A stretch of DNA of 37,739 nucleotides from Paludibacteraceae bacterium (GTDB lineage Bacteria > Bacteroidota > Bacteroidia > Bacteroidales > Paludibacteraceae). Shown piece after piece: positions 323 to 31,963 of the stretch; the first letter of the stretch is position 1, and each line of letters opens with the position of its first letter. The DNA lies in the NCBI GenBank assembly GCA_017446455.1, contig JAFSQV010000083.1, forward strand, positions 1 through 37,739, read 5' to 3'. Made by a program: the position numbers and the translations under genes. The notes beneath the pieces were generated by a model. The model was given only the letters and a program-made list of their open reading frames with translations. It was not told the DNA's origin and made no database searches.

Positions 323-1081
323 CTACAGTCTCTGGTGATAGTGGTAGTCCTTGAAGCGGTCGTCGGAGTCGTCGGAGTTGCGGCGAAGGCGCTGCCTGAG
401 GGATTGCCACCAGTCGAGGATCTTCGGTTCACGCCAGTTGATATGACGCCAATAGAGGATGAGCAGCCATCCGAAGAGCAAGCCGCCTAAGTGGGCGAAA
501 TGCGCCACATGGTCCGCCGTCAAGCCGGCAACCGAACCGAGGCCCGCGAAGAGTTCGATAAGCGCATATATAATAACGAACGTACGCGCGCGTATGGGTA
601 TCGGCAGGAAGATAATATACATCGGTACATCCGGGTAGAGCCATCCGAAGGCGAACAGGATACCGAAGACGGCACCCGACGCACCGATGGTGTTGAGCAT
701 CGCGCTATAATATGCGATACTGGCAGCATCATAACTCGCGCTCATATTCGAGAGCATCAAGGCCCAAACGGCTTCTTGTACGATTGCCGCACCCAGACCG
801 CAGACGATATAATAAATCAGGAAGCGGCTGCCGCCCCATTCGCGCTCGATGACCGGCGCGAACATCCACACCGCGAACATGTTAAAAAAGATATGACTCA
901 GGTTCGCGTGCAGGAACATATAGGTGAGCGGTTGCCACCAATGGAAAGTGGATGCGGAGAGGTAATGCAATCCGCCCCATTCATTCAAATCCAAACCATA
1001 CCGCTGCAGGAAAGCAGCCAGCAGGAAGATCACTAAGTTGGCTACCAAGAGGTAGCGCGTAACAGTCGGTAAATTTCTCAT
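323..1081 (-). CDS. rhomboid family intramembrane serine protease
   Basis: A 252-residue membrane protein with about six to seven transmembrane segments. The rhomboid signature is visible: HANLSHIFFNMF with H63 and N67 in segment 2, catalytic serine S135 in GASGAVFG, and the partner histidine H197 in AHLGGLLFG. Such proteases cut substrate helices within the inner membrane; the substrate cannot be told from sequence. The C-terminal tail (about residues 215-252) is cytoplasmic, rich in R and W, and carries two DNA nonamers read as SDDSDD. The start at 1081 is the first residue of a typical hydrophobic N-terminus, and a -7 box lies only about 10 bp upstream, so the mRNA may be nearly leaderless. 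It is divergent from the HU gene. Confidence 0.92.
   Translation of the reverse strand: MRNLPTVTRYLLVANLVIFLLAAFLQRYGLDLNEWGGLHYLSASTFHWWQPLTYMFLHANLSHIFFNMFAVWMFAPVIEREWGGSRFLIYYIVCGLGAAIVQEAVWALMLSNMSASYDAASIAYYSAMLNTIGASGAVFGILFAFGWLYPDVPMYIIFLPIPIRARTFVIIYALIELFAGLGSVAGLTADHVAHFAHLGGLLFGWLLILYWRHINWREPKILDWWQSLRQRLRRNSDDSDDRFKDYHYHQRL
359..376 (-). repeat. two nonamer units in the rhomboid tail
   Basis: On the minus strand TCCGACGAC is repeated twice and read SDDSDD. It resembles the TCNGANNNN nonamers in obg, tsaC, the glycogen synthase gene and the asmA-like gene but has only two units, so membership is uncertain. Confidence 0.4.
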
Positions 1082-2200: not shown

Positions 2201-3374
2201 TTTTATCGACTACGTCAAGATTTACTGCCGCTCCGGAAAGGGCGGTGCGGGTTGTATGCACCTTCATCGCGCGAAATATCTGCCGAAAGGCGGACCTGAC
2301 GGTGGTGACGGCGGTAAAGGCGGGTCGATTATCTTAGAAGGCAACCGTAACCTCTGGACGCTGCTGCACCTGAAGTACCAGAAGCATATCATGGCGACGG
2401 ACGGCGGCAAGGGCGGTCAGAGTCGTTCGTTCGGTAAGGACGGCGAGGATAAGATCATCGAAGTGCCGTGCGGCACGGTGGTCTATGACGGCGAGACGGG
2501 TGAGTTCATCTGCGAGGTGAAGGCGCATAAAGAGCGCGTGGTGCTGCTCAAAGGCGGTCGCGGCGGTTTAGGTAACTGGCATTTCCGCACGGCTACGAAC
2601 CAGGCGCCGCGCTATGCGCAGCCCGGTGAACCGGCGCAGGAGCGTACGGTGATCATGCAGTTGAAGGTGCTGGCGGACGTCGGTCTGGTGGGTTTCCCCA
2701 ATGCCGGCAAATCGACCCTGCTGAGTGTCGTCTCTGCCGCCAAACCCGAGATAGCCGATTATCCGTTCACGACGCTTACGCCGCAACTCGGTATCGTCTC
2801 GTATCGCGACGGCCGGTCGTTCTGCATGGCTGACATACCGGGAATCATCGAAGGCGCAAGCGAAGGCAAGGGTCTCGGACTGCGGTTCCTAAGGCATATC
2901 GAGCGCAACGCGGTGCTGCTCTTCATGGTGCCGGCTACTTCGCCCGATATCGAAGCGGAGTATAACATCCTGCTACGTGAGCTCGAGCAATACAATCCCG
3001 AACTGCTCACCAAGGCGCGTATCCTGGCGGTCACGAAGATTGACCTGCCGCGCGTGGATGACGAAGGCAAAGCTCTGCCGGCCATCAACTACGCGAAACT
3101 GAGCAAGAAACTCGGTATCGAAGTGCTGCCGATCTCGTCGGTAGCCGGCGAAGGTATCGAGGCACTCAAAGATGCCCTCTGGGTTGAACTGAACAAAGAA
3201 CAGAACCAAGTCATCGAGATTAGCCATGCCCCGATCGAAGTGGCGCAGTATTCGGAAGAGTCTGAGTATTCCGAAAAAAACGATGATTCCGAAGAGGAGG
3301 GCACGATCTACCTCGACGAGGTAGAAGAGGAATGGGACCTCGACAAATACAAAGGTATCGGATGGGATAATTGA
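2190..3374 (+). CDS. obg: GTPase Obg/CgtA (50S assembly, stress control)
   Basis: A 394-residue protein. The N-terminal Obg fold is glycine-rich (residues 1-157, with repeated GGxGG). The G domain has GFPNAGKST (168-176), [13 protein letters not shown] (215-222), TKIDL (282-286) and a G5-like SSVAGEG. The C-terminus is acidic and short, with no OCT domain. It binds the large ribosomal subunit during assembly. ATG at 2190 is preferred over TTG at 2181 because it gives [19 protein letters not shown]. Residues about 355-369 are encoded by five nonamer repeats (read [15 protein letters not shown]). The stop codon overlaps the ClC start (TGATG), so translation is probably coupled. Confidence 0.96.
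3252..3296 (+). repeat. five-unit nonamer array in obg
   Basis: Units are TCGGAAGAG, TCTGAGTAT, TCCGAAAAA, AACGATGAT and TCCGAAGAG, 45 bp in all. It codes for the Ser/Glu-rich stretch of the Obg C-terminus. Acidic tails are normal in Obg, so part of this could be protein-level selection, but the 9-bp period and unit number match arrays in unrelated genes. Confidence 0.6.
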
Positions 3375-5185
3375 TGAAGGCGCAGTGGTACGATAGAATG
3401 ATTGAGTGGCGGGAACGTCACATGAGCGAGAAGCACTTGGTGCTCCTGCTCTCTTTCTTCGTAGGTGCTTTCTCTGCCGCTGCTGCGGCACTGCTGAAAT
3501 CGTTTATCCATCTTATCCAATGGTTCGTGGAGGAGGAACTGATTGCGGACGGTCGCACGTGGTGGTACCTCATCACGCCGATTATCGGTATCACGCTCGC
3601 GGCGCTGTTTGTCAAGTATGTCGTGCGGGACGATATTTCGCACGGTATCACGAAGATCCTCTACGCCATCTCGCAACGTAAGTCCATCATCAAGGCGCAT
3701 AACATGTGGTCATCCATCGTCGGTTCCGGCCTGACGATCGGTTTCGGTGGATCGGTCGGTGCTGAGGCTCCTATCGTGCTCACCGGTGCTGCTATCGGTT
3801 CTAACCTCGCGAAGGCCTTCCGGCTCGACCAGAAGACGATGATGCTTATGATCGGTTGCGGCGCTGCCGGAGCGATAGGCGGTATCTTCAAAGCCCCGAT
3901 AGCGGGACTCGTCTTCACGCTCGAGGTGCTGATGATGGACCTGACGATGACGTCCGTCGCGCCTTTGCTTATCTCGTCCGTCACGGCGACCGCCCTCTCG
4001 TATATACTGACCGGTACGCAACCGATGTTCCCGCTCAAGTATATCGAGGTGTTTGCTGTAGCCCGTATCCCCTGGTACCTGATCTTAGGCGCGATATGCG
4101 GTCTGGTCAGCCTCTATTTCACGCGGGGCATGAACGCGCTCGAGCAATGGATGAAGCATAACGTGCACTCGACGGGTCTGAAGATCGTGGTGGGCGGTTT
4201 GACGCTGAGTCTGCTGATCTTCCTCTTCCCGCCGCTCTACGGCGAGGGTTACGACGTCATTCATCAACTGATCAATGGCGATAACCTCAGCGCGCTGCAT
4301 AACAGTCCGTTTGAGAAATACCTCGTTCCTACGGATTTCTACGCGGGCCTCTCGACGCTGAATACGCAGTTGTTGCTGCTCGTCTATTTCATCGCTATCA
4401 TCTTGCTCAAGATCGTTGCGTCGGTGGCTACCAACGGTGGTGGCGGTGTAGGAGGTATCTTTGCGCCCTCGCTCTTCATGGGTGCGATTGTCGGTTTTGT
4501 CACCGCGCGTATGATGAATATCGCCGGACTGATGGTGCCGGAGACTAGTTTTGCGCTGGTGGGTATGGCTGGTTTGATGTCGGGCGTGATGCACGCGCCA
4601 CTGACGGGTATCTTCCTGATTGCCGAACTGACGGGCGGCTATCACCTGTTCATGCCGCTGATGATCGTGAGCGTCATATCGTACCTGACCATCATGCTCT
4701 TCGAGCCGCACTCGTTGTACGCGATGCGTCTGGCGCAGAAGGGCGAACTGCTCACGCATAACAAAGACCGCAACGTGCTCACGCTGCTGAAGATGGACAG
4801 TGTGCTCGAGACGGATTTCGTGACCATCTTCCCGGAGATGACCTTGGGCGAGTTGGTCAAAGTGATCAGCGAAAGCAGACGAAATATCTTCCCCGTCATC
4901 GACAAGAAAGGTCACCTGCGCGGCATCTTATTGCTCGACGAGGTGCGTAATATCATGTTCCAGCCGCGGCTGTACAAGCGCTTCACGGTGGAGCAACTGA
5001 TGACGTCTCCGCTGGCCGTCTTGCGCTACGACCTGCCGATGGAGAAAGTGATGGAGATATTTGAGGATACCGGCGCATGGAACCTGCCGGTAGTGGATCA
5101 AGAACGCCGTTACTTAGGCTTCGTGTCCAAGTCGAAGATTTTCAATTCATACCGCCACGTCCTCGTGCATTTCAGCGATGAGTGA
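3374..5185 (+). CDS. ClC-type chloride channel/antiporter with CBS pair
   Basis: A 603-residue inner-membrane protein. The ClC core (residues about 20-445, roughly ten to twelve helices) has the anion-path motifs GFGGSVGAEAP, whose glutamate aligns with the gating Glu of antiporters, and GGVGGIFAPSLFMGA. Two CBS domains follow (about residues 475-600: MDSVLETDFVTIFPEM..., then VEQLMTSPLAVLRYD...), which in this family bind adenine nucleotides and gate transport. The retained Glu suggests Cl-/H+ exchange rather than a plain channel; this is inference. ATG at 3374 overlaps the obg stop by one base. Its 3' end overlaps xseB, on the other strand, by 39 bp. Confidence 0.94.
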   Translation: MKAQWYDRMIEWRERHMSEKHLVLLLSFFVGAFSAAAAALLKSFIHLIQWFVEEELIADGRTWWYLITPIIGITLAALFVKYVVRDDISHGITKILYAISQRKSIIKAHNMWSSIVGSGLTIGFGGSVGAEAPIVLTGAAIGSNLAKAFRLDQKTMMLMIGCGAAGAIGGIFKAPIAGLVFTLEVLMMDLTMTSVAPLLISSVTATALSYILTGTQPMFPLKYIEVFAVARIPWYLILGAICGLVSLYFTRGMNALEQWMKHNVHSTGLKIVVGGLTLSLLIFLFPPLYGEGYDVIHQLINGDNLSALHNSPFEKYLVPTDFYAGLSTLNTQLLLLVYFIAIILLKIVASVATNGGGGVGGIFAPSLFMGAIVGFVTARMMNIAGLMVPETSFALVGMAGLMSGVMHAPLTGIFLIAELTGGYHLFMPLMIVSVISYLTIMLFEPHSLYAMRLAQKGELLTHNKDRNVLTLLKMDSVLETDFVTIFPEMTLGELVKVISESRRNIFPVIDKKGHLRGILLLDEVRNIMFQPRLYKRFTVEQLMTSPLAVLRYDLPMEKVMEIFEDTGAWNLPVVDQERRYLGFVSKSKIFNSYRHVLVHFSDE

Positions 5186-6600: not shown

Positions 6601-7212
6601 TCATTCCCGAATGATGCGGAACGTACCGTCTGCGTTCACTTTGATGATGCTGCTCGGTTCGCACGGCACGTCGTCTTCTCTCCGGAACCGGCATACATAG
6701 TCTGCGCGGTCCAGCACCGCCTGCTCTATCTCATGAAAGAACCGCGCCGTAGGATGTCCGCTGATGTTCGCTGAAGTCGAAACCAAGGGGTGCCGCAACT
6801 GCTCGCAGAGTGCTTTGCTAAACGGCTCGTGCGTGATACGAATACCGATCGACCCGTCCTCCGCTATCAGGTTCGCAGCTATATTCCTCGCCCCCGGATA
6901 GATGATAGTGAGCGGCTTAACATCGGAGTACTCGGCATCATCGGCGTTTTCCGAATAATCAGAGGCTTCCAACAGCGCCCACGCGGTCTCCGGCACGTCC
7001 GTTACGTAGTAGTTCAGTTTAGCCGGACTATCCAGCAGCACAAGCATCGATTTCGAATCCTCGCGTTCTTTGAGCGCATAGAGTCGTTTGACAGCCTCGG
7101 CATTCGTGGCATCACATCCTATACCCCACACAGTATCCGTAGGATAAACGATGATACCGCCTTCGCGTAGCACCTTCAATGCCGCTTGTATGTCCTCTCT
7201 GTCGTAACGCAT
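6601..7212 (-). CDS. tsaC: L-threonylcarbamoyladenylate synthase (Sua5/YrdC/YwlC)
   Basis: A 203-residue protein of the YrdC fold. Visible motifs are GGIIVYPTDTVWGIGCDA (about residues 18-35), KERxDSKSM for the nucleotide site, and the late HPLVSTSANISG. It makes threonylcarbamoyl-AMP from threonine, bicarbonate and ATP for the t6A37 base of ANN-decoding tRNAs. The frame is open to 7302, but the added 30 residues lie over the promoter, so ATG at 7212 (MRYDREDIQAAL) is used. The five-nonamer array at 6919-6963 is read here as SDYSENADDAEYSD, in a surface loop between the conserved blocks. It has no C-terminal Sua5 domain. Gene name follows the short form. Confidence 0.93.
   Translation of the reverse strand: MRYDREDIQAALKVLREGGIIVYPTDTVWGIGCDATNAEAVKRLYALKEREDSKSMLVLLDSPAKLNYYVTDVPETAWALLEASDYSENADDAEYSDVKPLTIIYPGARNIAANLIAEDGSIGIRITHEPFSKALCEQLRHPLVSTSANISGHPTARFFHEIEQAVLDRADYVCRFRREDDVPCEPSSIIKVNADGTFRIIRE
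6919..6963 (-). repeat. five-unit nonamer array in tsaC
   Basis: Read on the minus strand the units are TCTGATTAT, TCGGAAAAC, GCCGATGAT, GCCGAGTAC and TCCGATGTT, exactly 45 bp. It adds about 15 acidic residues to a loop of a compact enzyme where I know of no such stretch in the family. Confidence 0.65.
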
Positions 7213-13946: not shown

Positions 13947-15460
13947 CACAACCGGATTATATTTTTGAGACCTCATGGGAAGTATGTAACCGCGTAGGAG
14001 GTATCTACGCCGTGTTGAGTACGCGCGCAGCGAGTATGCAAGCCGAGCACCCGGATAAGGTGTTTTTCTTCGGACCCGATTTCGGAGCGCACAGCGATAT
14101 TTATTTTCGCGAAGAGAAAGGATTGTTAAAGGGATGGAAAGCGCCGGCAGAGATTCCGGTGCGTATCGGCCGATGGGATGTGCCGGGCACTCCGATAGCG
14201 ATCCTATTGAAGTTCGATGCCTTATGGGCGCGTAAGGATGCTATTTACGGATGGGCATGGAGTCTGTTTAAAGTCCAGAGTCACGCAGCCTATGGCGACT
14301 ACGACGAGAGTTGCATGTTCGGCTACGCCGCCGGCATGGTGATGGAGAGTCTCTACCATCATCTGAGTCCTCGGAATACTCGGAAAACTCAGAATCTTCC
14401 GAATTTCTGCGCCCACGCTAACGAGTGGCAAACGGCCTTCTCGATCTTCTATCTGCGCGACCATTGCCCGAAGATCGCGACCCTCTTTACGACGCACGCC
14501 ACAGGTATCGGACGCTCGATTGCCGGTAATGGCAAACCGCTCTACGACTATTTCCACGCCTATAACGGCGACCAGATGGCGGCGGAACTGAACATGGTGA
14601 GCAAGCACTCGGTAGAGAAACAAGCGGCATATTGGGCGGACTGCTTCACAACAGTCAGCTCTATTACCGCGCGCGAGTGCGAGCAGCTTCTGGATAAGAA
14701 AGTGGATATCGAGACCCCGAATGGTTTTGAGTCGAAATTCGTGCCGAAGGCAACAGAGTTTGAGATCAAGCGCAAGGAGTCCCGCGAAGTTTTGCGTACC
14801 GTCGCTGGCGAGATATTAGGCGGAGTCGTTCCGCAGAATGCTTTACTAATCGGCATTTCGGGGCGACTGGAGATGAAAAACAAAGGAATAGACGTCTTCG
14901 CAGAAGCGCTAGACCGGTTAGCACAGAAGATTTACCATAGCGACCAACCCGAGCGCGAGGTGGTAGCGTTTGTGATGATTCCGTATTTGGATCGTGCGCC
15001 GGCGCGCAAGGGAAAAGTGAGTGCGGTGTTTGTGCCGTATTATTTGGACGGTCATGATCCGCTCTTCGGCAAGACGTATTACGACCTGCTGATGGGTTTG
15101 GATATCACGGTTTTCCCGAGTTATTACGAGCCTTGGGGCTATACGCCGCTGGAGAGTTGTGCCTTCCATGTGCCGACTATCACCACCAGTCTGGCGGGCT
15201 TTGGTGCATGGGCTTCGCAGCAGAAACAACCGAGCGGTGTGGTAGTGATTGAGCGGACGGATAGTAACTTCAATCAGGTGGCGGAAGATATCGCGGATAC
15301 CCTTTTGCGTTTCGATCGCTTGTCGAAAGAAGAGAAGGCCGAAGTGCGCAAGTGTGCGGCGGCGACAGCCAAGAAGGCCGATTGGAAGCATTTCTTTAAG
15401 TATTACCGCAAGGCGTATGAAATCGCCCTGAATAAGCGGGATAAAAGGTTAAGTATATGA
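13943..15460 (+). CDS. glycogen synthase, GT3-like
   Basis: A 505-residue glycosyltransferase of the GT-B fold resembling eukaryote-type glycogen synthase, the form found in Bacteroidales. Visible are FETSWEVCNRVGGIYAVLST at the N-terminus (the KVGG-like donor loop), HANEWQTAF, TTHATGIGRSIAG, TPNGF, GRLEMKNKGIDV and the C-terminal FPSYYEPWGYTPLESCAFHVPTI, with the catalytic-type Glu. It elongates alpha-1,4-glucan from a nucleotide sugar. No other glycogen gene is nearby. A five-nonamer array (14362-14406) is read in an unusual frame as SPRNTRKTQNLPNF just before HANEWQ. Both ends overlap neighbours by 4 bp (ATGA). Confidence 0.9.
   Translation: MTQPDYIFETSWEVCNRVGGIYAVLSTRAASMQAEHPDKVFFFGPDFGAHSDIYFREEKGLLKGWKAPAEIPVRIGRWDVPGTPIAILLKFDALWARKDAIYGWAWSLFKVQSHAAYGDYDESCMFGYAAGMVMESLYHHLSPRNTRKTQNLPNFCAHANEWQTAFSIFYLRDHCPKIATLFTTHATGIGRSIAGNGKPLYDYFHAYNGDQMAAELNMVSKHSVEKQAAYWADCFTTVSSITARECEQLLDKKVDIETPNGFESKFVPKATEFEIKRKESREVLRTVAGEILGGVVPQNALLIGISGRLEMKNKGIDVFAEALDRLAQKIYHSDQPEREVVAFVMIPYLDRAPARKGKVSAVFVPYYLDGHDPLFGKTYYDLLMGLDITVFPSYYEPWGYTPLESCAFHVPTITTSLAGFGAWASQQKQPSGVVVIERTDSNFNQVAEDIADTLLRFDRLSKEEKAEVRKCAAATAKKADWKHFFKYYRKAYEIALNKRDKRLSI
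14362..14406 (+). repeat. five-unit nonamer array in the glycogen synthase gene
   Basis: Units are TCTGAGTCC, TCGGAATAC, TCGGAAAAC, TCAGAATCT and TCCGAATTT, 45 bp. The gene reads it one base out of phase relative to obg, tsaC and the asmA-like gene, giving Arg/Thr/Asn-rich instead of Ser/Glu-rich sequence. That argues the repeat is conserved as DNA, not as protein. Confidence 0.75.
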
Positions 15461-17151: not shown

Positions 17152-20100
17152 ATGAAGCAATTTAAGGAATATAAGCAGTTGAATCTCCCCGAGTTGAGTC
17201 GCGAAGTGCTGGCGCAGTGGGAGTCGGAGGATTTATTTGGTAAGAGTATCTCAACCCGCGAGGGACACCCGCAGTTCTTGTTCTTCGAAGGTCCGCCTTC
17301 GGCGAACGGTATGCCGGGTATCCACCATGTTATGGCGCGTACCATCAAAGATACCTTCTGCCGTTTCAAGACCATGCAGGGTTTCCAAGTGCGCCGTAAG
17401 GCCGGTTGGGACACGCACGGTCTGCCCGTCGAACTGGGCGTAGAGAAGATGCTCGGTATCACCAAAGAGGATATAGGAAAGAAGATCTCTGTGGATGAGT
17501 ACAACGCCGCTTGCCGCCGCGAGGTGATGAAATATACGGCGGAGTGGACCAACCTCACTAAGCAAATGGGCTACTGGGTGGACCTCGAGAACCCGTATAT
17601 CACCTACGACAACAAGTATATCGAGACCCTGTGGTACTTGCTCAAGGAACTCTATAAGAAAGGCTATCTCTACAAGGGCTATACCATCCAACCGTACTCG
17701 CCTGCGGCGGGAACAGGTCTGTCCTCGCACGAACTCAACCAGCCCGGTTGCTACCGCGACGTGAAGGACCTGACGTGTACCGCCAAGTTCCATCTCAAGG
17801 ACGGACGCTATATCATCGCTTGGACCACGACTCCGTGGACCTTGCCTTCGAATACCGCCCTCTGCGTAGGCCCGAAGATCGACTATGTTGAGATCGCGCT
17901 CGAGAGCGGCGAACATATCATCTTGGCCGAGGCGCGTCTCTCTGCGTATTTCGAGAACGCTGAGATAGTAGCCCGCTATAAAGGCACAGATCTCGTGGGT
18001 CTGGAGTACGAACCGCTCTTCCCGTGGGTGAACCCAGGCGAAGGATCCTATCGTGTCATCTCCGGTGACTATGTCACAACCGAAGACGGTACGGGTATCG
18101 TGCATATCGCGCCGACTTTCGGTGCGGACGATAAGAAAGTGGCGGACGCTGCCGGTGTGCCGGGTCTCTATATGCAGACCAAGAACTTCGGTCCGCGCCC
18201 TATGGTGGACTTCACCGGCAAGTACTGGAAAATCGAAGACCTGGACCCTGAATGGGTAAAGAATAACGTCAATGTGGAGCTCTACGGCAAGTATGCCGGC
18301 CGATGGGTGAAGAACGCCTACGACCCGCAGTTTACCGTGGATGGCAAGTATGACGAAGCCGCTGCGGCGAAAGCCGAATCGCTCGACTTGCACCTCTGTC
18401 TGGAGATGAAAGCCGACGGCCGTCTGCTCAAGAGCGAGAAGCACGTGCACACCTATCCGCACTGCTGGCGTACGGACAAACCGGTTCTCTATTATCCGCT
18501 CGACTCGTGGTTCATCCAATCCACCAAAGCCCGCGAGCAGATGATCGCCCTCAACCAAACTATCAACTGGCAACCGGAATCCACCGGAACAGGCCGTTTT
18601 GGCAAATGGCTGGAGAACCTCAACGACTGGAACCTCTCCCGTTCGCGCTATTGGGGCACACCGCTGCCTATCTGGCGTACAGAAGACGGTAGCGAAGAGA
18701 TATGTATCGGTTCGATCGCAGAACTGTTCGCAGAGATAGAGAAGTCTGTGAAGGCCGGATTCATGAAAGCGAACCCCTGGCCGAAGCATATCGTAGGCGA
18801 TTATAGCAAGGCGAACTACGATCCGTCGGTCATTGACCTGCATCGCCCGTACGTGGACGCTATCATCCTCGTCTCACCGAGCGGCAAACCTATGAAGCGT
18901 GAGCTGGACCTCATCGATGTATGGTTCGATTCGGGTGCCATGCCGTACGCACAGAACCACTACCCGTTCGAGAACGCAGACCTGCCGCGCACGGCGGACT
19001 TCATCTCCGAAGGAGTGGACCAGACCCGCGGATGGTTCTTCACTCTCCATGCGATCCATACGATGATCGAAGGCACGGTAGCGTACAAGAACGTCATCTC
19101 CAATGGTCTGGTACTCGATAAGAACGGCAATAAGATGTCCAAACGTCTCGGCAATGCCGTCGATCCCTTTGGAGCACTGAATACCTACGGCGCGGACGCC
19201 GTACGTTGGTACATGCTCACGAACTCTTCGCCCTGGGAGAACCTCAAGTTTGACCCGGAAGGCGTGGATGAAATCCGCCGCAAGTTCTTTGGAACGCTCT
19301 ATAACACCTACGGATTCTTCGCTCTCTACGCAAACGTGGACAACTGGCAATTTGCTGCCAACACCGACGGTGAGCCGACGGTCAACCGACAGTCAAAGCC
19401 AACGTCAGGCCAAGGTTACGCCGAAATTGACTTATGGATTCTCTCCAAACTCAACTCGCTCGTCAAGGACGTCACCGAGTCCTACGAGGCCTACGAACCC
19501 ACCAAGGCCGGTCGTGCGATCTCGGACTTCGTACAGGACGACCTGTCCAACTGGTATGTCCGTCTGAACCGCAAGCGTTTCTGGGGCGGTGAGATGAATG
19601 CCGACAAGCAAGCGGCGTACACCACGCTCTACACGTGCCTCAAGACCGTCGCCCAACTCATGGCGCCGAACGCACCGTTCTATGCGGATCGTCTCTACCG
19701 CGACCTGACCGGCGAGACAGTACACCTCAGCGAATGGCCGAAAGCCAATGAGTCGCTGATTGATACGAAACTGGAGCGTCAGATGTACCTCGCGCAGCAG
19801 GCTACGTCTATGATCCTCTCGCTCCGTAAGCGCGCAGAGAAGAATGTGCGCCAACCGCTCCAGAAGGCCGTTATTCCGACACCGGACAGCGAGACCGCGG
19901 ATGCCTTGCAGCATGTAGCTGACCTCATCAAATCGGAAGTGAACGTCAAAGAACTCGTCATCGTGCCGGCGGAGCAATCGGAGATCAAACTGGTCAAGAA
20001 AATCAAGCCGCAGTTTAAGGTGCTCGGCAAGAAAGTCGGCGCGAACATGAAGGCCCTCGCTGCCGCTATCAACGCCATGTCCCAAGACGACATCGCGAAG

Positions 20101-20511
20101 ATGGAAACCGAAGGTTCTTTCAACTTTCAACTTTCAACTTTCAACTGCACGATAGTGCCGGAGGATGTGGAAATTTTGACGGAAGATATGCCGGGTTGGT
20201 TGGTGGCGAATAATGGAATCTTGACCATCGCGCTGGATATCGAGTTGACGGATGAACTGATCGAAGAAGGTATCGCCCGTGAACTCATCAATCGTATCCA
20301 GAATCTCCGTAAATCCTCCGGTCTGGAGATCACCGACCGCATCGCGATCGTGCTCGAGGACCGTCCCGAGATTCATAACGCCGTGCTCCATTGCGGAGAA
20401 TATATTGCTTCGCAAGTGCTGGCAAAGAGTCTGGAACTGGCAGCCGACGTACAAGGCGAGAGCCTCGAGATGGACGGCTATAACGTGAAGATAAACATCA
20501 AAAAAGCATAG
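17152..20511 (+). CDS. ileS: isoleucyl-tRNA synthetase
   Basis: A 1119-residue class I synthetase. The HIGH-like block is GPPSANGMPGIHHVM (47-61); the editing domain follows with TTPWTLPSNTALCVG and the late GADDKKVADAAG; KMSKRLGN starts at K661. The C-terminal tRNA-binding region ends with the eukaryote-like extension of Bacteroidota enzymes, without zinc cysteines. Residues about 989-998 (SFNFQLSTFN) are encoded by a four-unit TTTCAAC array in the late C-terminal domain. It charges tRNA-Ile in the cytoplasm. The start at 17152 lies 18 bp after the C69 gene and no promoter was seen, so it depends on read-through or an internal promoter. Confidence 0.96.
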   Translation: MKQFKEYKQLNLPELSREVLAQWESEDLFGKSISTREGHPQFLFFEGPPSANGMPGIHHVMARTIKDTFCRFKTMQGFQVRRKAGWDTHGLPVELGVEKMLGITKEDIGKKISVDEYNAACRREVMKYTAEWTNLTKQMGYWVDLENPYITYDNKYIETLWYLLKELYKKGYLYKGYTIQPYSPAAGTGLSSHELNQPGCYRDVKDLTCTAKFHLKDGRYIIAWTTTPWTLPSNTALCVGPKIDYVEIALESGEHIILAEARLSAYFENAEIVARYKGTDLVGLEYEPLFPWVNPGEGSYRVISGDYVTTEDGTGIVHIAPTFGADDKKVADAAGVPGLYMQTKNFGPRPMVDFTGKYWKIEDLDPEWVKNNVNVELYGKYAGRWVKNAYDPQFTVDGKYDEAAAAKAESLDLHLCLEMKADGRLLKSEKHVHTYPHCWRTDKPVLYYPLDSWFIQSTKAREQMIALNQTINWQPESTGTGRFGKWLENLNDWNLSRSRYWGTPLPIWRTEDGSEEICIGSIAELFAEIEKSVKAGFMKANPWPKHIVGDYSKANYDPSVIDLHRPYVDAIILVSPSGKPMKRELDLIDVWFDSGAMPYAQNHYPFENADLPRTADFISEGVDQTRGWFFTLHAIHTMIEGTVAYKNVISNGLVLDKNGNKMSKRLGNAVDPFGALNTYGADAVRWYMLTNSSPWENLKFDPEGVDEIRRKFFGTLYNTYGFFALYANVDNWQFAANTDGEPTVNRQSKPTSGQGYAEIDLWILSKLNSLVKDVTESYEAYEPTKAGRAISDFVQDDLSNWYVRLNRKRFWGGEMNADKQAAYTTLYTCLKTVAQLMAPNAPFYADRLYRDLTGETVHLSEWPKANESLIDTKLERQMYLAQQATSMILSLRKRAEKNVRQPLQKAVIPTPDSETADALQHVADLIKSEVNVKELVIVPAEQSEIKLVKKIKPQFKVLGKKVGANMKALAAAINAMSQDDIAKMETEGSFNFQLSTFNCTIVPEDVEILTEDMPGWLVANNGILTIALDIELTDELIEEGIARELINRIQNLRKSSGLEITDRIAIVLEDRPEIHNAVLHCGEYIASQVLAKSLELAADVQGESLEMDGYNVKINIKKA
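20118..20145 (+). repeat. four-unit TTTCAAC heptamer array in ileS
   Basis: Four perfect TTTCAAC copies, 28 bp, in frame as NFQLSTFN. The same array in the same frame occurs in the membrane gene at 26354-26381. The length is not a multiple of three, so simple insertion would shift the frame; flanks must have compensated or the array replaced existing sequence. Confidence 0.8.
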
Positions 20512-20999: not shown

Positions 21000-23900
21000 T
21001 GAAACGTGCATTGATCATCACCGGTATTACCTTGGGTTCGCTGCTGCTCGTGCTGATAGCTGCAGTACTCATCGTGATATACATCGTTTTCACGCCGGAT
21101 CGCATCACGCCCATCGCGCGCCAAGCGGCAGCGGAATATATCACCTGCGAACATGAGATAGGAGAGGTGGACCTCACTTTCTTCTCTACCTTCCCGCGCT
21201 TTGGGCTGCGTGCCGATGGTCTGCTGTTGATCAATCCCAAAGCCGGCAGTCAGAACGATACTGTCGTGTCCGCCCCGCGCTTCACGGCTACGGTCGATGT
21301 GATGGAGTTTGTCAACAACAAGCGCCTCGTCATTCACGAAGCGATTCTGGATGATGCGTCGGTGAACTTCTTCATCGCGCCGGACGGGACGACGAACCTC
21401 ACGGATGTCTTCGTCACGTCCCCCGACACGACGGACACTACGGCGTTCTCCTTGCCTTTCGATGAATTACGCGTAGACGGTCTGCGTATAGCAGCCCGTG
21501 GTATCACGTTTGTAGATGCCAAGGATACCATCGATGCTTCGCTCGGATTCACCGAACTGAGTGCGAAAGCAGCGAGTTGGGACGATATGCTCATTGGCCT
21601 TGATGCCCAAGACGTCTGCGCGCATATCAAGGGCAAGACCTACGCGGATAGCCTGCATGTAGAGCTAATAGCTCCCTTGGCGATGAACCTTGATGCGATG
21701 CATTTTCGCTTTGACGGAGCACGCTTGGCTATCAACGATTTTAACCTGCGTATAGAGGGCGAAACGACCATCGGCGATAGCATTGCGCTCGATGTCCAAC
21801 TCGAGACCGACAAATGGCAGATCAAGCCCCTCTTGGCGCTGGTGCCTCAGACTTTCACCAAATCGCTCTCGGACCTCGATATAGACGGTACGCTTCAATT
21901 GGAGGCTACGGCGCAAGGCTATTACGCCGATTCCGTGATGCCGCATATCCAAGCGCATCTTGTTTTGAAGGATGGCGAAGGGAAGTATAAACCCCTCCCG
22001 TACACTCTTCGTAATGTAAAAATCGACGCCGACGCGGACTTGCGAATGAATAAGGGCGAGCAATCCAGCGTGACGATTCGTACGCTTGAGGCAAAGACCA
22101 AGAAGAGCGCGGTCGCAGCCAATGGTACGGTCGATGATCTACTGGGCAATATGCTGATGGATATGCACCTGACGCTCGATGCCAATCTGCCGGACTTTGC
22201 GTATTTCTACCCGAAGAACATGACCCTTAACGGTCGCGCGAAAGGAAAAGCGAACGCACGGATACGTTTAGACGATCTCACAGCTATGCGTCTGGAGAAA
22301 GGACGCATTGATGCGGACCTCAACCTGTCGGATATCCGTTATGCGACGGATAGCATGGAGGCGGAACTGCCGCTCACGCATGCGCGTATCCACTTGCCGA
22401 ATCCTAAGCCCTCCAAACCCAAACTCAACTGGGCACGCATCGACCTCGAGACCGATAAAGTGGACTTCTCCATGTTGACGCCCTTAAAGGCCGCTCTCAA
22501 AGCCTCGACCATTCAATTGGAGACCGGCAATGTGTTGTCCAATGATCCTGTCCTCTGCGCCGCAGTAGCGCTGCAGTCCGACCGACCGATAGAGGTAGAG
22601 ACGGATTCGATGGGTGGCGCGATTGATGCGCCGAACCTCAAGGCCTATGTCGAGTATAACACCAAGTCCGAGACCGGACTGGAGAAAGCCCAAGCCAACA
22701 TGCGTTTTGACGGCCTCGAAGGATTCTTCAAGGATATCCGGGCCGACCTGAAAGCCTCGGACTTGAGTGCTACCGTGAGTGGCGGTAAGTCCATCCGCGC
22801 CAAACTTAGCACGCGTGCGCTCAAAGCTAAGATGGGCGAGGAATTGGATGCGAAGACGGGTGATTTGTCTCTTGAAGCCTCCGCTCGCTATAACAGCAAG
22901 GGCGAAAACGAATTGCTCAAGTGGAATCCGCGGTTGAAGATCAATCTCAAGAATGGGGAACTGAACATGCCGGAGCGTTTGCCGGAACCCGTCTATATCC
23001 CGTCCATCGATTTCAAATACTCGAATCGCGAGATGGATATCGCCGACGCACGCGTCGAATTGGGTAATTCGGACCTGAATCTCAAAGGAAACGTGCGCAA
23101 TATCGGTAAGTGGTTCCGTCATAAAGCGATTCTTGAAGGCCAACTCGATATCGTCTCCGACCATTGCGATGCCAACCAGCTCCTCGCGTGGTTCAGCGCC
23201 GACAGCGGATCAGAGGAAGTCTCTGAGTCATCGGAAAAATCAGAATCATCGGAAAAATCAGAAATCACCAATGACCAATCACCAATTACCAATGATGCCG
23301 ATAAGGCATCCGAACCTTTCATGGTTCCAACCGACGTAGACTTGGCGCTTAACACGCATATGCGCGAGGTGGAGATATTCAATCAGGTGGCGAAAGACCT
23401 GAAGGGTGGACTGTACGTCAAGGACGGCAAACTGATTCTCGATGAGATGGGCTTTGTATGCCGTGCGGCGAAACTGCAGTTGACGGCTATGTATCGCACG
23501 CCTTGGCGTGACCATATTTACCTCGGTTTGGACTATCATATGATTGACATCGATATTGACGAACTGCTTACGATGATTCCGAACCTGGAAGAGATGGTAC
23601 CGATGCTCAGTTCATTCAAGGGCGCAGCCCAGTTCCACTTGGCAGCGGAGACCTACACGGATGAGAACTACCAGCCGAAGATCAGTACCCTTCGCGGTGC
23701 GGCTTCGCTCACCGGCAAAGATCTCGTCGTGATGGACAGCAAGACCTTCTCGAAGATAAGCAAACTGCTGCTCTTCAAGAAGAAGACGGAGAACAAGATC
23801 GACTCCATCAATGCTGAAATGACCGTCTACAAGGACCAGATCGACGTCTATCCGCTCTGCGTGCAGATGGACAACTACATGGTGGCTCTCGGCGGACGGC

Positions 23901-24129: not shown

Positions 24130-26247
24130 ATGAAAAAAAGTTTTATTTTAGGAGCAATTGCTATGACTTTATTAGCATGCAACCAAACCAACCCCTTGTT
24201 GGATCAACCCGCTACCCCGTTTGGTGTTCCGGCGTTTGACCAAGTGAAAATCGAGCATTACCTGCCTGCGTTTGAAGAAGCGATTAAGCAGAACAAAGCA
24301 GAGGTGGATGCTATAGTGAATAACGAAGCGGAGCCGACGTTCGAGAATACGATTGTGGCGCTCGACCGTTCTGGTCTGCTGCTTGACCGCGTAGTAGGCG
24401 TGTTCTTCAACGTCCTCGAGGCGGACGGTAACGATGAGATGAACGAGATCGCAGAGAAAGTGAGTCCGATGCTCAGCGAACTGAGTGACGGCATCATTCT
24501 GAACGACAAACTCTTCCAGCGCGTGAAGTTCGTCTATGAGCAGCGTGACCAATTGGGCCTCAACCCCGAGCAGATGCGTCTCTTGACGGAGACCTACAAG
24601 AACTTTGCGGACAACGGTGCGAACCTGCCGGAGGACAAGAAAGAGCGTCTCAAAGAGATCAACCAGGAACTCGGTCTGCTCTCTCTCAAGTTCGGTAATA
24701 ACGTCGTTGCGGAGACCAATGCATGCCAGCGTTTTATCACCGATGAATCCGAACTCGCAGGTCTGCCGGAGAGCGCTAAAGCCGCTGCGGCCGAAGAAGC
24801 AGAGGCTGCCGGCCATCTGGGCGAGTGGCTCTTTACGCCGAAGCGTACTTCCTTCACGCCGGTCCTCCAGTATTGCGAGAACCGCGCGCTGCGTGAGCAA
24901 CTGCTCATGGACTATACCACCCGCGCAAACCATGACAACGAGTTTGATAACAAAGCCGTCATCATCCGCGAGATGGAACTGCGTATCGAGCGCGCGAAGC
25001 TGTTCGGTTATGACAACCCTGCCGACTATATCCTCGCAGACTGCATGGCGAAGAACCATCAGACCGTTGATGCGTTCCTGCAATCCGTATGGAAACCGTC
25101 CTTGGAGGCAGCTAAACGCGAAGCTGCGGCTTTGCAGGCTGTGATGGATATGGAGAAAGCGGCGCAAGACCCGCACACCGATGATCAGGTTCTGCTCCAA
25201 CCCTGGGACTGGTGGTTCTATGCCGAGAAGCTGCGTAAAGCCAAGTACGACTTGGACGAAGAGGCTATCAAGCCCTATTTCGAACTCTCCAATGTCCGCA
25301 AAGGAGCGTTCGGCGTAGCTACCAAACTGTATGGTCTGCAGTTTGAGAAACTGGAGGGTATGCCGGTATATAATCCCGACGTAGAGGTATTCAAAGTAAC
25401 CGAAGCAGACGGATCGCTCGTCGGCATTCTGTACACCGACTATTTCCCGCGTGCGGGCAAGCGTCCGGGTGCATGGATGAATCAGATTCTGCCGCAGTAT
25501 ATCGATGCGGAGGGTGTGGATCATCGTCCGGTGGTTATCAATGTGGGTAACTTCAACAAACCGACCGCAGGTAATCCGTCCCTTCTCTCGATGGATGACG
25601 TAGAGACCCTCTTCCATGAGTTCGGTCATGCCCTGCACGGTCTGCTCTCGAAGGCACATTATAAATCGCTTAGCGGTACCAACACCCCGCGTGACTTCGT
25701 CGAACTGCCCTCGCAGTTTATGGAGAATTATGCGTACGAACCGGAGGTGCTCAAGACCTATGCCTTCCATTACCAGACCGGAGAGGTTATTCCGGATGCA
25801 TTGATCGAGAAAATCAATGCAGCCGGTAAGTTCAACCAGGGCTTTGTGACCACCGAGTTACTCTCGGCTTCTATCCTCGATATGGACTTCCACGAGTTGA
25901 CTACAGCAGAAGGACTCGACGTGAACGCGTTTGAGAAGAAAAGTCTCGATGAAATGGGCATGATTCCGCAGATCATCGTCCGTTATCGCCCGACTTTCTA
26001 CAACCATATTTTCACGACGGGTTACGAGGCTGGCTACTACAGCTATACCTGGGCAGCCGTACTGGATGCAGACGCTTTTGCGGCTTTCAAAGAAACCGGA
26101 AACCTCTTTGACGCTGAGACCGCTGCGCGCTTCCGTCACTTGCTCGAGCAGGGCGGTACACGCGATGCGCAGGAGCTCTATCTGGAGTTCCGCGGTAAAG
26201 AGGCGGATCCCGCTAACCTCTTGCGCCGTAAGGGCTTTATCGACTAA
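24130..26247 (+). CDS. M3 family peptidyl-dipeptidase (Dcp-like) lipoprotein
   Basis: A 705-residue zinc metallopeptidase. The signal MKKSFILGAIAMTLLAC has the lipobox LLAC, so it is probably a periplasmic lipoprotein. The zinc motif HEFGH is at residues 496-500 (TLFHEFGHALHG), with the downstream Glu in the FVELPSQFMENYAYE block, and GYYSYTWAAVLDADAF near the end is typical of Dcp/oligopeptidase A. It removes C-terminal dipeptides. The frame is open from 24037, but that part overlaps the AsmA end; ATG 24130 gives the clean signal. Its stop overlaps the next start (TAATG). Confidence 0.95.
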   Translation: MKKSFILGAIAMTLLACNQTNPLLDQPATPFGVPAFDQVKIEHYLPAFEEAIKQNKAEVDAIVNNEAEPTFENTIVALDRSGLLLDRVVGVFFNVLEADGNDEMNEIAEKVSPMLSELSDGIILNDKLFQRVKFVYEQRDQLGLNPEQMRLLTETYKNFADNGANLPEDKKERLKEINQELGLLSLKFGNNVVAETNACQRFITDESELAGLPESAKAAAAEEAEAAGHLGEWLFTPKRTSFTPVLQYCENRALREQLLMDYTTRANHDNEFDNKAVIIREMELRIERAKLFGYDNPADYILADCMAKNHQTVDAFLQSVWKPSLEAAKREAAALQAVMDMEKAAQDPHTDDQVLLQPWDWWFYAEKLRKAKYDLDEEAIKPYFELSNVRKGAFGVATKLYGLQFEKLEGMPVYNPDVEVFKVTEADGSLVGILYTDYFPRAGKRPGAWMNQILPQYIDAEGVDHRPVVINVGNFNKPTAGNPSLLSMDDVETLFHEFGHALHGLLSKAHYKSLSGTNTPRDFVELPSQFMENYAYEPEVLKTYAFHYQTGEVIPDALIEKINAAGKFNQGFVTTELLSASILDMDFHELTTAEGLDVNAFEKKSLDEMGMIPQIIVRYRPTFYNHIFTTGYEAGYYSYTWAAVLDADAFAAFKETGNLFDAETAARFRHLLEQGGTRDAQELYLEFRGKEADPANLLRRKGFID

Positions 26248-26780
26248 TGCAGAATCGTCCCTTATCCAATAGGAATAAATGGCTCTACCATCTGTTGCCG
26301 GCAGTCTTTTGGCTGCTGGCAATAGGCGGTAGCCTGATTCCTATGCTGCCTTCTCTAAACTTTCAACTTTCAACTTTCAACTATTACAGCGGCTATTGGG
26401 TAGCCGCGATAATGCTGATTATTATCGTTTTCATCGGGAGAATTAAGCGTCATTCCTCGTCCGTAGAGGAGTGTTTTGTCATGGCGCTGCTCTTAGGTAT
26501 TGCTTCTTATTGGATTCCGACGGTCGTCTTCCTGACGATCCCCGTATGGGCATACCTTATCTACCGGAATCTCTTTAGCGGCCGTTCGTTGCTGGCTACG
26601 TTCCTGGGCTATGCCGTGGTGGCTATATGGGCGGCGGTATTCATCTTTTTCGGATGGATAGCCAATCCTTGGGCGCACTTCTTTGCATTAGAAAACGCCC
26701 TCGGGTGGATACCCTTGGGCGCTATCTTAATCGCGTGGCTCGCTTCTACCATTGTACGACAAAACCTGCGTGAACGTTGA
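26247..26780 (+). CDS. small integral membrane protein, unknown function
   Basis: A 177-residue protein with about five to six transmembrane segments (residues 14-33, 50-65, 78-90, 92-108, 120-140, 152-168) and basic ends. No family was recognised. Residues 36-45 (LNFQLSTFN) come from the TTTCAAC array and fall in the loop between the first two segments. It is translationally coupled to the M3 peptidase (1-bp overlap). Its last 35 bp overlap the end of the TonB receptor gene on the other strand, so the two transcripts converge without room for a terminator. Confidence 0.75.
   Translation: MQNRPLSNRNKWLYHLLPAVFWLLAIGGSLIPMLPSLNFQLSTFNYYSGYWVAAIMLIIIVFIGRIKRHSSSVEECFVMALLLGIASYWIPTVVFLTIPVWAYLIYRNLFSGRSLLATFLGYAVVAIWAAVFIFFGWIANPWAHFFALENALGWIPLGAILIAWLASTIVRQNLRER
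26354..26381 (+). repeat. TTTCAAC heptamer array in the membrane gene
   Basis: Three perfect TTTCAAC units (26361-26381) preceded by the degenerate unit TCTAAAC, 28 bp in all. Same frame (NFQLSTFN) as the ileS array 6.2 kb away. Confidence 0.78.
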
Positions 26781-29881: not shown

Positions 29882-29940
29882 TTATACACTTTTATAAACT
29901 CTATAAACCTTTATACACTGTACACCGTACACCTTACACT
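29882..29940. repeat. intergenic 9-mer and 7-mer arrays
   Basis: The whole gap between two minus-strand genes is short repeats. From 29882: TTATACACT, TTTATAAAC, TCTATAAAC and a partial unit. From 29913 come four heptamers, ATACACT, GTACACC, GTACACC, TTACACT (28 bp). The same unit lengths occur inside coding genes elsewhere in the window. Confidence 0.7.
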
Positions 29941-29941
29941 A

Positions 29942-31963
29942 TCACCAAATAGAAACTCGGTTTTCAGGTGCAATATACATCGGACTCTCTTCCGTCACGT
30001 TCCATGCCTCATACCATGCGCCGATCTGCGGCAGCGCGCCGTTGACGCGCCAGCGGCCGAGCGAGTGAGGATCGCTCTTCGTGCGGTTGAGGATCTCTTC
30101 CGGACGGATATTGCCTGCCCATACATTGGCGTATGCCAGGAAGAAGCGCTGTTGCGGTGTGAAGCCGTCGCGAGTCTGCAGACGCTCTGCCTCGGGTTTG
30201 GCCTCCTCATTGAGGGTGAACGCCAGGAACGACACTTGCAAACCGCCGTGGTCCGCGATGTTCTCGCCCAGCGTGAACGCACCGTTAGCATGTACGCCCG
30301 GAGCAACCTCGATCTTGTTGAACGCCTCTTCCATCACTTTCGTGCGAGCGTCGAACGCCGCTTTGTCTTCGGCGGTCCACCAGTTCACCATGTTGCCGTC
30401 CTTGTCGAACTGGCAACCCTGATCGTCGAAGCCGTGGGTCATCTCATGTCCGATGACGACGCCAATCGCGCCGTAGTTGAACGCATCGTCAGCGTTCATG
30501 TCGAAGAACGGATACTGGAGTATTCCGGCGGGGAAGCATATCTCGTTGCTCGAGGGGTTATAGTACGCGTTCACCGTCTGCGGCGTCATATACCATTTCT
30601 TCTTATCTACCGGCTTGCCGAGGAAGCTGAGGCTGTAGTCTTTCTCAAATTTCGCTGCGCGTTGCAGGTTGGCGAAATAGGTGTCCTCGGGATTGATATC
30701 GAGTTGGCTATAGTCGCGCCACTCGTCCGGATAACCGATCTTGATCGTCATCGCGTTCAGTTTCTCGAGCGCTTTGTCTTTCGTCTCGCGACTCATCCAT
30801 GCGAGGTTCTCGATACGGATACCGAGCGCTTTCTGCAGGTTCTTCACCAGCGCTAACATACGCTCTTTGTTCTCCTCCGGGAAGTATTTCTTTACGTACA
30901 TCTGGCCCACTGCCTCGCCCAGCGTACCGTTCACGATACCTACGGCGCGTTTCCACAGCGGACTCGGTTCTTCGCGACCGGACAGCACGCGGCCGTAGAA
31001 ATCAAACGAAGCCATGTATATCTCCGTCGTCAGATACGAAGCCGCATCGTCGATTACTTGCCATGCGAACAAAGTCTTCAGGTCCTCGAGCGGCTCCTCG
31101 TCTAACATCCGGCCGGCTTCCTGCAGGTGCGGGATCTGACCGATAGAGAGGCTGTCCAGATTATGGATGCCGGCTGCCTCGAAGTAGATTTTCCAATCTA
31201 CCTGCGGAACGAGTTGCTGGAGCTCGTCCACACTCATCTTGTTATAGTTCGCCTGCGGGTCGCGAAGCTCTACGTTGCTGTAGGCCGCTTTCGCTAAGCG
31301 GGTCTCGAGACGCAATACGGTCTGTGCTTTGTCGGCTGCGTTCTCGAATCCGAAAAGGCCGAACAACTTCTCTACGTATGCTACGTACGCGTCGCGAATC
31401 TTCTTCGTCTGCTCGTCTTCATCGAGGTAATATTCCTTCTCGCCGAGGGAGAAACCGGCTTGGTATTCATTGAGAATATTCATAGAGCTATTCATCGCAT
31501 CGGCATCGACGTACATCGCCCAGAGTTGGTAATCCATCGACTCACCGAGCGCCTTGCTCAACTCCGCGCGTGTACCTATTCCTTCGATTTCATCGAGGAT
31601 TTTCTGTACCGGTGCGATACCTTCTGCATCGCGGCGCGCGGTGTCCATCGCGAGATTATACATGTCGCCTATCTTCTGCGCTACCGATCCGTTCACATGG
31701 CGCTTTGCGGCCAGTTCCTGGATCAGGCCGTTCACCTGCTCGAGGTTCTGTAGTCCGAGTTTGTCGAACGAACCGAACCGGCTGTATTCCGGCGTGAGGG
31801 GGTTGTTAGCCATCCATCCGCCACAGGCGAATTGGTAGAAGTCATTCTGTGCTACGACGGTCGTATCCAGGTTGTTAAGGTCGATACCCGTCGTCTGTTC
31901 TTTGTTTGTACAAGCTGTTGTCATCATTGCAATCGCTGCAAGCGTAAAAATAATTTTTTTCAT
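29942..31963 (-). CDS. pepO: M13 family metallopeptidase (PepO/neprilysin type) lipoprotein
   Basis: A 673-residue zinc endopeptidase. Signal MKKIIFTLAAIAMMTTAC with a Cys at the expected lipobox position (MTTAC is a loose match). Family motifs: VNAYYNPSSNEICFPAGILQ, HEMTH at residues 506-510 (VIGHEMTHGFDDQG), and ENIADHGG with the third ligand. The N-terminal part begins FACGGWMANNPL as in neprilysins. It should cut short peptides in the periplasm or at the cell surface. The frame opens at 32023, but ATG 31963 gives the signal peptide and fits the promoter, whose start site would be inside the longer version. Confidence 0.94.
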   Translation of the reverse strand: MKKIIFTLAAIAMMTTACTNKEQTTGIDLNNLDTTVVAQNDFYQFACGGWMANNPLTPEYSRFGSFDKLGLQNLEQVNGLIQELAAKRHVNGSVAQKIGDMYNLAMDTARRDAEGIAPVQKILDEIEGIGTRAELSKALGESMDYQLWAMYVDADAMNSSMNILNEYQAGFSLGEKEYYLDEDEQTKKIRDAYVAYVEKLFGLFGFENAADKAQTVLRLETRLAKAAYSNVELRDPQANYNKMSVDELQQLVPQVDWKIYFEAAGIHNLDSLSIGQIPHLQEAGRMLDEEPLEDLKTLFAWQVIDDAASYLTTEIYMASFDFYGRVLSGREEPSPLWKRAVGIVNGTLGEAVGQMYVKKYFPEENKERMLALVKNLQKALGIRIENLAWMSRETKDKALEKLNAMTIKIGYPDEWRDYSQLDINPEDTYFANLQRAAKFEKDYSLSFLGKPVDKKKWYMTPQTVNAYYNPSSNEICFPAGILQYPFFDMNADDAFNYGAIGVVIGHEMTHGFDDQGCQFDKDGNMVNWWTAEDKAAFDARTKVMEEAFNKIEVAPGVHANGAFTLGENIADHGGLQVSFLAFTLNEEAKPEAERLQTRDGFTPQQRFFLAYANVWAGNIRPEEILNRTKSDPHSLGRWRVNGALPQIGAWYEAWNVTEESPMYIAPENRVSIW

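Follow-up and report, generated by a model that had tools for sequence, protein, structure and literature searches.

Short tandem arrays of a degenerate nine-base unit in unrelated genes and at length-variable sites of a Paludibacteraceae genome

Why should the same 45-bp array of nine-base units stand in four unrelated genes and be read there in different frames? The question was raised by a first-pass annotation of a 37,739-nucleotide stretch of DNA (contig JAFSQV010000083.1, hereafter the window) from Paludibacteraceae bacterium GCA_017446455.1 (G000). We followed it up by comparison with related genomes, one per species (G codes denote genomes, L codes sampled loci or contig pieces); these are draft assemblies, G000 being about 80% complete and many others incomplete. 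The window is colinear with the nearest relative, G142, and with G150 and G168, at 96.6, 88.7, and 85.5% identity, respectively, in the longest segments (about 20 kb each). Comparison loci of other genera, and most within the genus, were chosen around few genes and are non-random, and gene calls and reading frames come from a simple purpose-made caller. The four array-bearing genes match the Pfam families GTP1/OBG, Sua5/YciO/YrdC (tsaC), glycogen synthase, and AsmA; family-level matches were also obtained for a rhomboid gene and for a class I tRNA synthetase, which we read as ileS. A second obg, 81% identical, lies elsewhere in the same assembly (G000:C76:6644-7804) and suggests bin contamination or a paralogue. 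The four 45-bp stretches are present where the annotation had placed them, and are given here with their immediate relatives.

3252..3296, forward strand: obg, acidic C-terminal part; nonamer array in the Ser-Glu frame, with three TCNGA units strict and the following ones, AACGATGAT, decayed
6919..6963, reverse strand: nonamer array in a loop of tsaC; two units decayed; Ser-Glu/Asp frame
14362..14406, forward strand: nonamer array in a loop of glycogen synthase; five strict units, frame one base over
23222..23266, forward strand: nonamer array in a linker of asmA; five strict units; Ser-Glu frame
23263..23293, forward strand: period-7 array AATNACC directly adjoining the asmA nonamer array, found by short-period detection
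363..376, reverse strand: two-unit relative in the rhomboid gene, two TCNGA at 9-bp spacing, kept in G142

The period-9 TCNGA runs in obg, tsaC, glycogen synthase, and asmA are far above chance. Three TCNGA at 9-bp spacing, with one mismatch allowed, give 9 overlapping matches (0.12 expected from 100 shuffles), all of them within these four genes, and two TCNGA at the same spacing give 12 overlapping matches against 0.73 expected, the rhomboid pair (363-376) among them. Over 234 kb of G000, TCNGA pairs at spacings of 9, 18, and 27 number 27, 17, and 10, and at all other spacings from 4 to 30 only 0 to 7 each. The annotation had further described the arrays as holding exactly five units and as lying on both strands. 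Five strict units are indeed found in glycogen synthase and asmA, but obg has three and two of those in tsaC are decayed, reading TCGGC on the forward strand, where G142, G150, and G168 have five strict units. Nor is the number fixed more widely: the 12 strict arrays in 514 kb of G000 have 3, 4, 5, and 6 units in 4, 3, 4, and 1 cases, and 26 strict arrays across the genus, a set that still includes one orthologous pair (the asmA locus in two species), have them in 10, 8, 7, and 1 cases, so that strict arrays range from 3 to 6 units in both samples. Occurrence on both strands is true yet uninformative, since TCNGA is its own reverse complement.

When each core letter is not required in each unit, 23 arrays with 109 units (a set that counts twice three loci common to G000 and G142) define the unit as TCNGARTAN, the core being conserved at 92% (T), 100% (C), 95% (G), and 95% (A), and the flanking positions at 83% (R at 6), 71% (T at 7), and 68% (A at 8); one Markov shuffle held no such array. 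A fully palindromic unit was considered and rejected, palindromic spacers being fewer than in column shuffles (3 of 77 vs. 12.3). Among 20 distinct strict arrays (12 from the G000 sample and 8 from that of G142, two common loci left out), 16 lie in genes or at a gene edge: 7 read as Ser-Glu/Asp-X, one of these at a gene edge, 8 stand in the glycogen synthase frame, and 1 in the third; the remaining 4 are intergenic. Could selection for Ser/Glu-rich protein linkers have made the repeats? The 7 Ser-Glu/Asp-X arrays speak for it, the variable positions 3, 6, and 9 being third codon positions there. Yet the 8 arrays in another frame and the 4 intergenic ones all have the TCNGARTAN unit, and most same-genus orthologues carry other residues at these places. 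Position 3, moreover, varies outside the Ser-Glu frame too, its pairwise difference within arrays being 0.75 in that frame, 0.56 in the other, and 0.50 between genes; as it is not a third codon position in the other frame, codon freedom does not explain its variability. Selection for such linkers is hardly credible as the origin of the repeats and is refuted as their general cause, although it could still favor the keeping of arrays that happen to be in the Ser-Glu frame. Since two coding frames and intergenic DNA alike preserve the pattern, it is a pattern of the DNA itself, and the annotation was right both that glycogen synthase reads the repeat DNA one base over and that the repeat is unrelated to its host genes.

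A DNA-level pattern with a near-palindromic fixed core, a free center, and fixed spacing might also be a set of binding sites for a DNA- or RNA-binding protein, as has been proposed for the TAACTGA repeats of Beggiatoaceae. Most arrays, however, lie inside unrelated genes, at no common position to start codons, and the family is undetected in some close species; such a role seems to us highly improbable as an explanation.

The distribution of the family is patchy. For strict nonamer arrays the count is 12 over 514 kb from G000 and 10 over 702 kb from G142; loci sampled from further species of the genus (762 kb) gave 4, and those from other Bacteroidales (713 kb) gave 1. A four-unit profile, built from 16 arrays (7 from G142 and 6 from G000), was run over more genomes; its counts are rough, with at most 40 candidates scored per genome under stricter filters, a zero meaning none detected, and a near-palindromic array being countable on both strands (G000 gave 38 in one count and 44 in another). 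By this rough measure the family is detected in 90 of the 178 genomes of the genus, with 38 matches in G000, 41 in G142, and 38 in G150, and 0 to 3 in the near clade of G022, G182, G071, G141, and G199 (tree of 30 species). G112 has 32 matches and its neighbor G161 none detected, and G167 has 22, G076 0, and G075 1; G116 and G032, which contributed no array to the profile, have 44 and 38. Outside the genus, where 148 genomes of the order were scanned in the other of these rough counts, 21 gave between one and four matches, and a single genome, G288 of another family, gave 41. Rough as these counts are, they make the nonamer family abundant in certain species of the genus, while in near relatives of those it goes undetected.

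Many loci, apparent bursts in single lineages, and a rich genome in another family are what an element driven by a transposase or reverse transcriptase might leave behind. Against this, we noticed no shared ends or flanks among the printed nonamer arrays, and the draft assemblies gave no Y1_Tnp match in G000 or G142 (68 of 178 genomes have one) and no RVT_1 match in G000, about 80% complete (12 of 41 genomes have one). The Y1_Tnp result, from draft genomes, bears on REP/RAYT dispersal, in which copy-rich genomes would carry a Y1 transposase gene. Such an element we consider very unlikely. Loss of mismatch repair was likewise examined as a cause and set aside, MutS_V being matched in 40 of 41 genomes, G000 included. 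The searches for MutS_V, RVT_1, and Y1_Tnp turned up no vehicle or enzyme for array copying.

The nonamer family is one among many short-period arrays, about 200 per Mb, of which period 7 is the commonest. A detector for arrays of any period from 5 to 15, degenerate ones included, found 101 in 514 kb of G000 (42 of period 7, 14 of period 8, 16 of period 9, 12 of period 11, and 17 others) and none of any period in one order-3 Markov shuffle of the same 514 kb. Per Mb, G000 has 196 arrays and G142 has 184; three samples drawn from further species of the genus gave 188, 135, and 181, and 63 loci from other Bacteroidales gave 79; 100 kb of Escherichia coli K-12 held two arrays, each of period 6. 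More than half (58 of 101) lie between genes or at gene edges, where random placement would put 14.5, the coding share of the DNA being 87% by the simple gene caller. The annotation had supposed that the element enters coding sequence in multiples of three. Periods divisible by three are favored in genes (22 of 43 in-gene arrays vs. 4 of 58 others), but many in-gene arrays have period 7; what counts, then, is that the total length preserves the frame, and not that the unit is 9. Units recur between unlinked arrays of G000: period-9 units at distance 0 or 1 form 14 pairs against 0.3 in shuffles, and identical period-7 units 20 pairs against 2.4. The sharing of period-9 units is weaker in G142 (8 pairs vs. 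2.2, with a shuffle maximum of 5). Period-8 units are shared less clearly, and hardly any period-11 unit recurs in a second array. Units are also more similar within arrays (0.53) than between them (0.40), so that local amplification acts too. One further set of arrays, around CTAG, keeps one core at the differing spacings of 8, 9, and 10.

L274:2153-2196, CTAG array
L274:12582-12626, CTAG array
L281:11971-12014, CTAG array
L286:5656-5697, CTAG array
L040:4984-5040, CTAG array

What stands at the same places in relatives? By the annotation's own measure, orthologues with the same residues at the same sites across distant genera would refute its reading; within the genus, with 30 loci per gene (our own included), most orthologues differ there in residues and lengths, and the exceptions are few, Ser-Asp/Glu repeats being found also in tsaC of G032 and in asmA of G036 and G031. 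The obg array is nearly unchanged in G142, with residues and lengths differing in 29 other orthologues of the genus. That of glycogen synthase has one substitution in G142 and keeps five units with several changes in G150; in G168 and G164 (L257-L260) the loop holds an unrelated insert, 30 bp longer, in which TTAAACGC words alternate with small hairpins that differ in sequence (hairpins judged by eye). Elsewhere in the genus, for the 15 of 30 rows readable by flank pattern (species with missed flanks left out), the same loop has GTGAAAG-, AATTAAA-, GTCGAAA-, or TCAAACC-type repeats, or is short. In asmA, the linker of G142 has no relation to that of G000 but nearly equals that of G015, and so looks, from the sequence, like an exchanged segment. 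That the sites are special to the nonamer is not supported: in other species they hold arrays of period 7, 8, 9, or 11, or hairpin-bearing inserts. Further short-period sites in the window are the following.

19363..19396, forward strand: loop of ileS with a period-11 array; in other species the loop is short or has an array of period 7 or 9
20117..20146, forward strand: period-7 array CAACTTT in a second loop of ileS; swapped or absent in other species
26358..26382, forward strand: period-7 array CAACTTT in the open frame 26247-26780; the frame stays open across the site in relatives
29882..29942, no strand assigned: intergenic composite short-period array; different units in G168 and G164
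3372..3386, forward strand: obg-clc junction, empty in G000; filled by a period-7 array in G142 and G168 and by another one in G150

In the second ileS loop, readable in 23 of 30 species (missed flanks left out) and grouped manually with imperfect arrays included, the array is CAACTTT in 9, CGACTTT in 4, CAACTRT in 4, TACACTT in 1, and GAATTAC in 1, and is missing in 4. The CAACTTT and CGACTTT forms differ at one same position in every unit. An M13 peptidase loop likewise has CACCTTT and CGCCTTT forms with the order of units kept: in G150 (40678-40710) the three CACC units of G142 and G168 are CGCC, the AACC between them being unchanged. Such same-position changes could reflect a re-writing of the array or a hot context that has mutated repeatedly. 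Alleles that are cleanly empty or cleanly filled are found at the obg-clc, adk-obg, and M3 peptidase junctions; the adk-obg junction is empty in three species and 49 bp longer, with a period-8 array, in G168. Of the 105 arrays in the comparison of G000 with G142, 20 are comparable, and among these 10 have the same length, 1 is off by a single base, and in 9 the array has been shortened, lost, or replaced. Wherever a copy was compared with relatives, its site is one of variable length among species: a protein loop or linker, a gene junction, or a spacer.

The 45-bp stretches are thus best read as belonging to a dispersed, lineage-specific family whose short tandem arrays are built on TCNGARTAN, a degenerate unit of 9 bp. 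How such a family might spread is a matter of balance between two views. We lean, at somewhat better than an even chance, towards block copying of arrays combined with a filter on length and frame, the copying step being one that we infer. Whole arrays would appear, and be replaced, by copying during replication or repair, candidate routes being template switching, slippage over several units, and copying from an existing array elsewhere; alleles may in addition be exchanged between species by homologous recombination. Selection would then pass only those events that, in total length and frame, do not disable the protein, and a family that is often copied could rise to tens of loci in one lineage. 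Unit sharing together with patchiness argues for copying. The main rival is slippage in place, in which each array grows from a local monomer and shared units reflect the taste of the polymerase for certain words. It is consistent with the prevalence of period 7, also reported as the commonest period in other bacteria and there attributed to polymerase slippage (PMC4679880, PMC4692102), with units being more alike within arrays than between, and with the M3 peptidase junction, whose empty allele holds sequence close to one unit and fits local seeding. A polymerase common to close species does not, however, predict sharply different abundances of the nonamer among them, and the empty adk-obg junction shows no unit-like monomer that we can see; position 3, too, varies while the core is kept, unlike the copies of a single seed. 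In ileS a step of 7 bp would break an essential gene, and one loop has five kinds of period-7 array besides a form with none. Since the gain or loss of one heptamer breaks the frame there, the period-7 arrays should have come or changed three units at a time or as a block, which follows from the genetic code and not from any event observed. On these grounds slippage in place, as the general explanation, seems unlikely. Block copying, for its part, is not demonstrated by long shared stretches: between arrays at different loci these average 8.07, against 8.14 in unit shuffles, and those of 15 or more number 9 (one of them an orthologous pair) against 3.8, a weak signal at best whose best pair is the asmA locus of two species. 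In that comparison no copying event was seen together with its donor. One may also imagine an active process in the genus that writes whole multi-unit arrays, copied from others with drift confined to certain positions, and re-writes the same junctions and loops, so that unit families would spread and die like mobile elements that carry no genes; this we regard as rather doubtful.

Parts of this picture have precedents. Long simple sequence repeats with units of 5-11 nt (Mrazek et al. 2007, as told in PMC4679880) resemble the present arrays in the range of unit lengths, in the prevalence of heptamers, and in the preference for multiples of three in coding sequence; here too, runs are longer than chance, although degenerate arrays were counted and the measure is not identical, heptamers are commonest, and in-gene periods divisible by three are favored. 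The present arrays differ in their core-and-spacer degeneracy and in that one type of array can take the place of another at a given site. The excess of heptamers in bacterial genomes goes back to a report of 2007, which proposed polymerase slippage as its cause (related in PMC4679880, PMC4692102), and lineage-specific heptamers are described in Xanthomonas (GGGAATC) and Nostoc (GGGGA(C/T)T) (PMC4692102). They share with the nonamer a single short tandem unit at many loci in certain lineages, with length and sequence varying between close species. The nonamer likewise has one unit at unlinked loci and a restriction to lineages; it differs in having a split core, free positions, and no G-runs, and in lying mostly in genes and in two frames, whereas the heptamer type is mainly intergenic and G-quadruplex-forming. 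TAACTGA direct repeats, known from marine Beggiatoaceae, some Cyanobacteria, and Bacteroidetes, resemble it (PMC4679880) by sets of two to six copies in many places, a patchy occurrence, and no evident mechanism; but they consist of a single heptamer and, in the main genome, stand for the most part directly before start codons, while the nonamer is degenerate and mostly within genes. Heptamer-rich genomes and lineage-specific heptamers are already in print, and the nonamer family is a variant within that kind; a partial search of the literature gave nothing on the TCNGARTAN nonamer or on array replacement at fixed sites. Cyanobacterial STRR heptanucleotides are also dispersed short tandem repeats, set apart from the nonamer, by description, in unit and host. 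Rickettsia palindromic elements are repeats inserted in frame in unrelated genes, but they are longer and have conserved ends, whereas the nonamer arrays have 3 to 6 units and no common flank that we noticed. What the present genus offers is 178 sampled species in which orthologous places can be seen empty, filled, or differently filled, ileS included. The nonamer family can serve in it as a marker of traceable spread, as close species seem to differ greatly in how much of it they carry, and, if arrays are written as blocks, loops and junctions in gut Bacteroidales would have in them a means of rapid evolution.

A viral source for the arrays was also considered, and abandoned: the four-unit nonamer pattern matched 20 stretches on 15 contigs of a viral collection and four control patterns matched 4, 17, 15, and 12, which places it near background overall. 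Matches in several distinct stretches of one contig were given only by the nonamer and by none of the four controls; this concerns 4 contigs, of which two have an array in common and may be one virus. PHROGs matches were obtained for 6 of 14 reading frames of the nonamer-bearing viral-collection contigs, most of them of unknown function. One of these contigs, of 126 kb and uncertain phage status, has ten TCNGA arrays of 3 to 15 units in three sampled pieces (L344, L347, and L351), in different frames and also outside long open frames; it also encodes ParA-like and methyltransferase-like proteins. Another, of 16 kb (L337 and L345), has TCNGA arrays of 3 to 11 units at six places, and at two of these the array ends the open frame of a putative gene as a Ser-Asp-Tyr tail.
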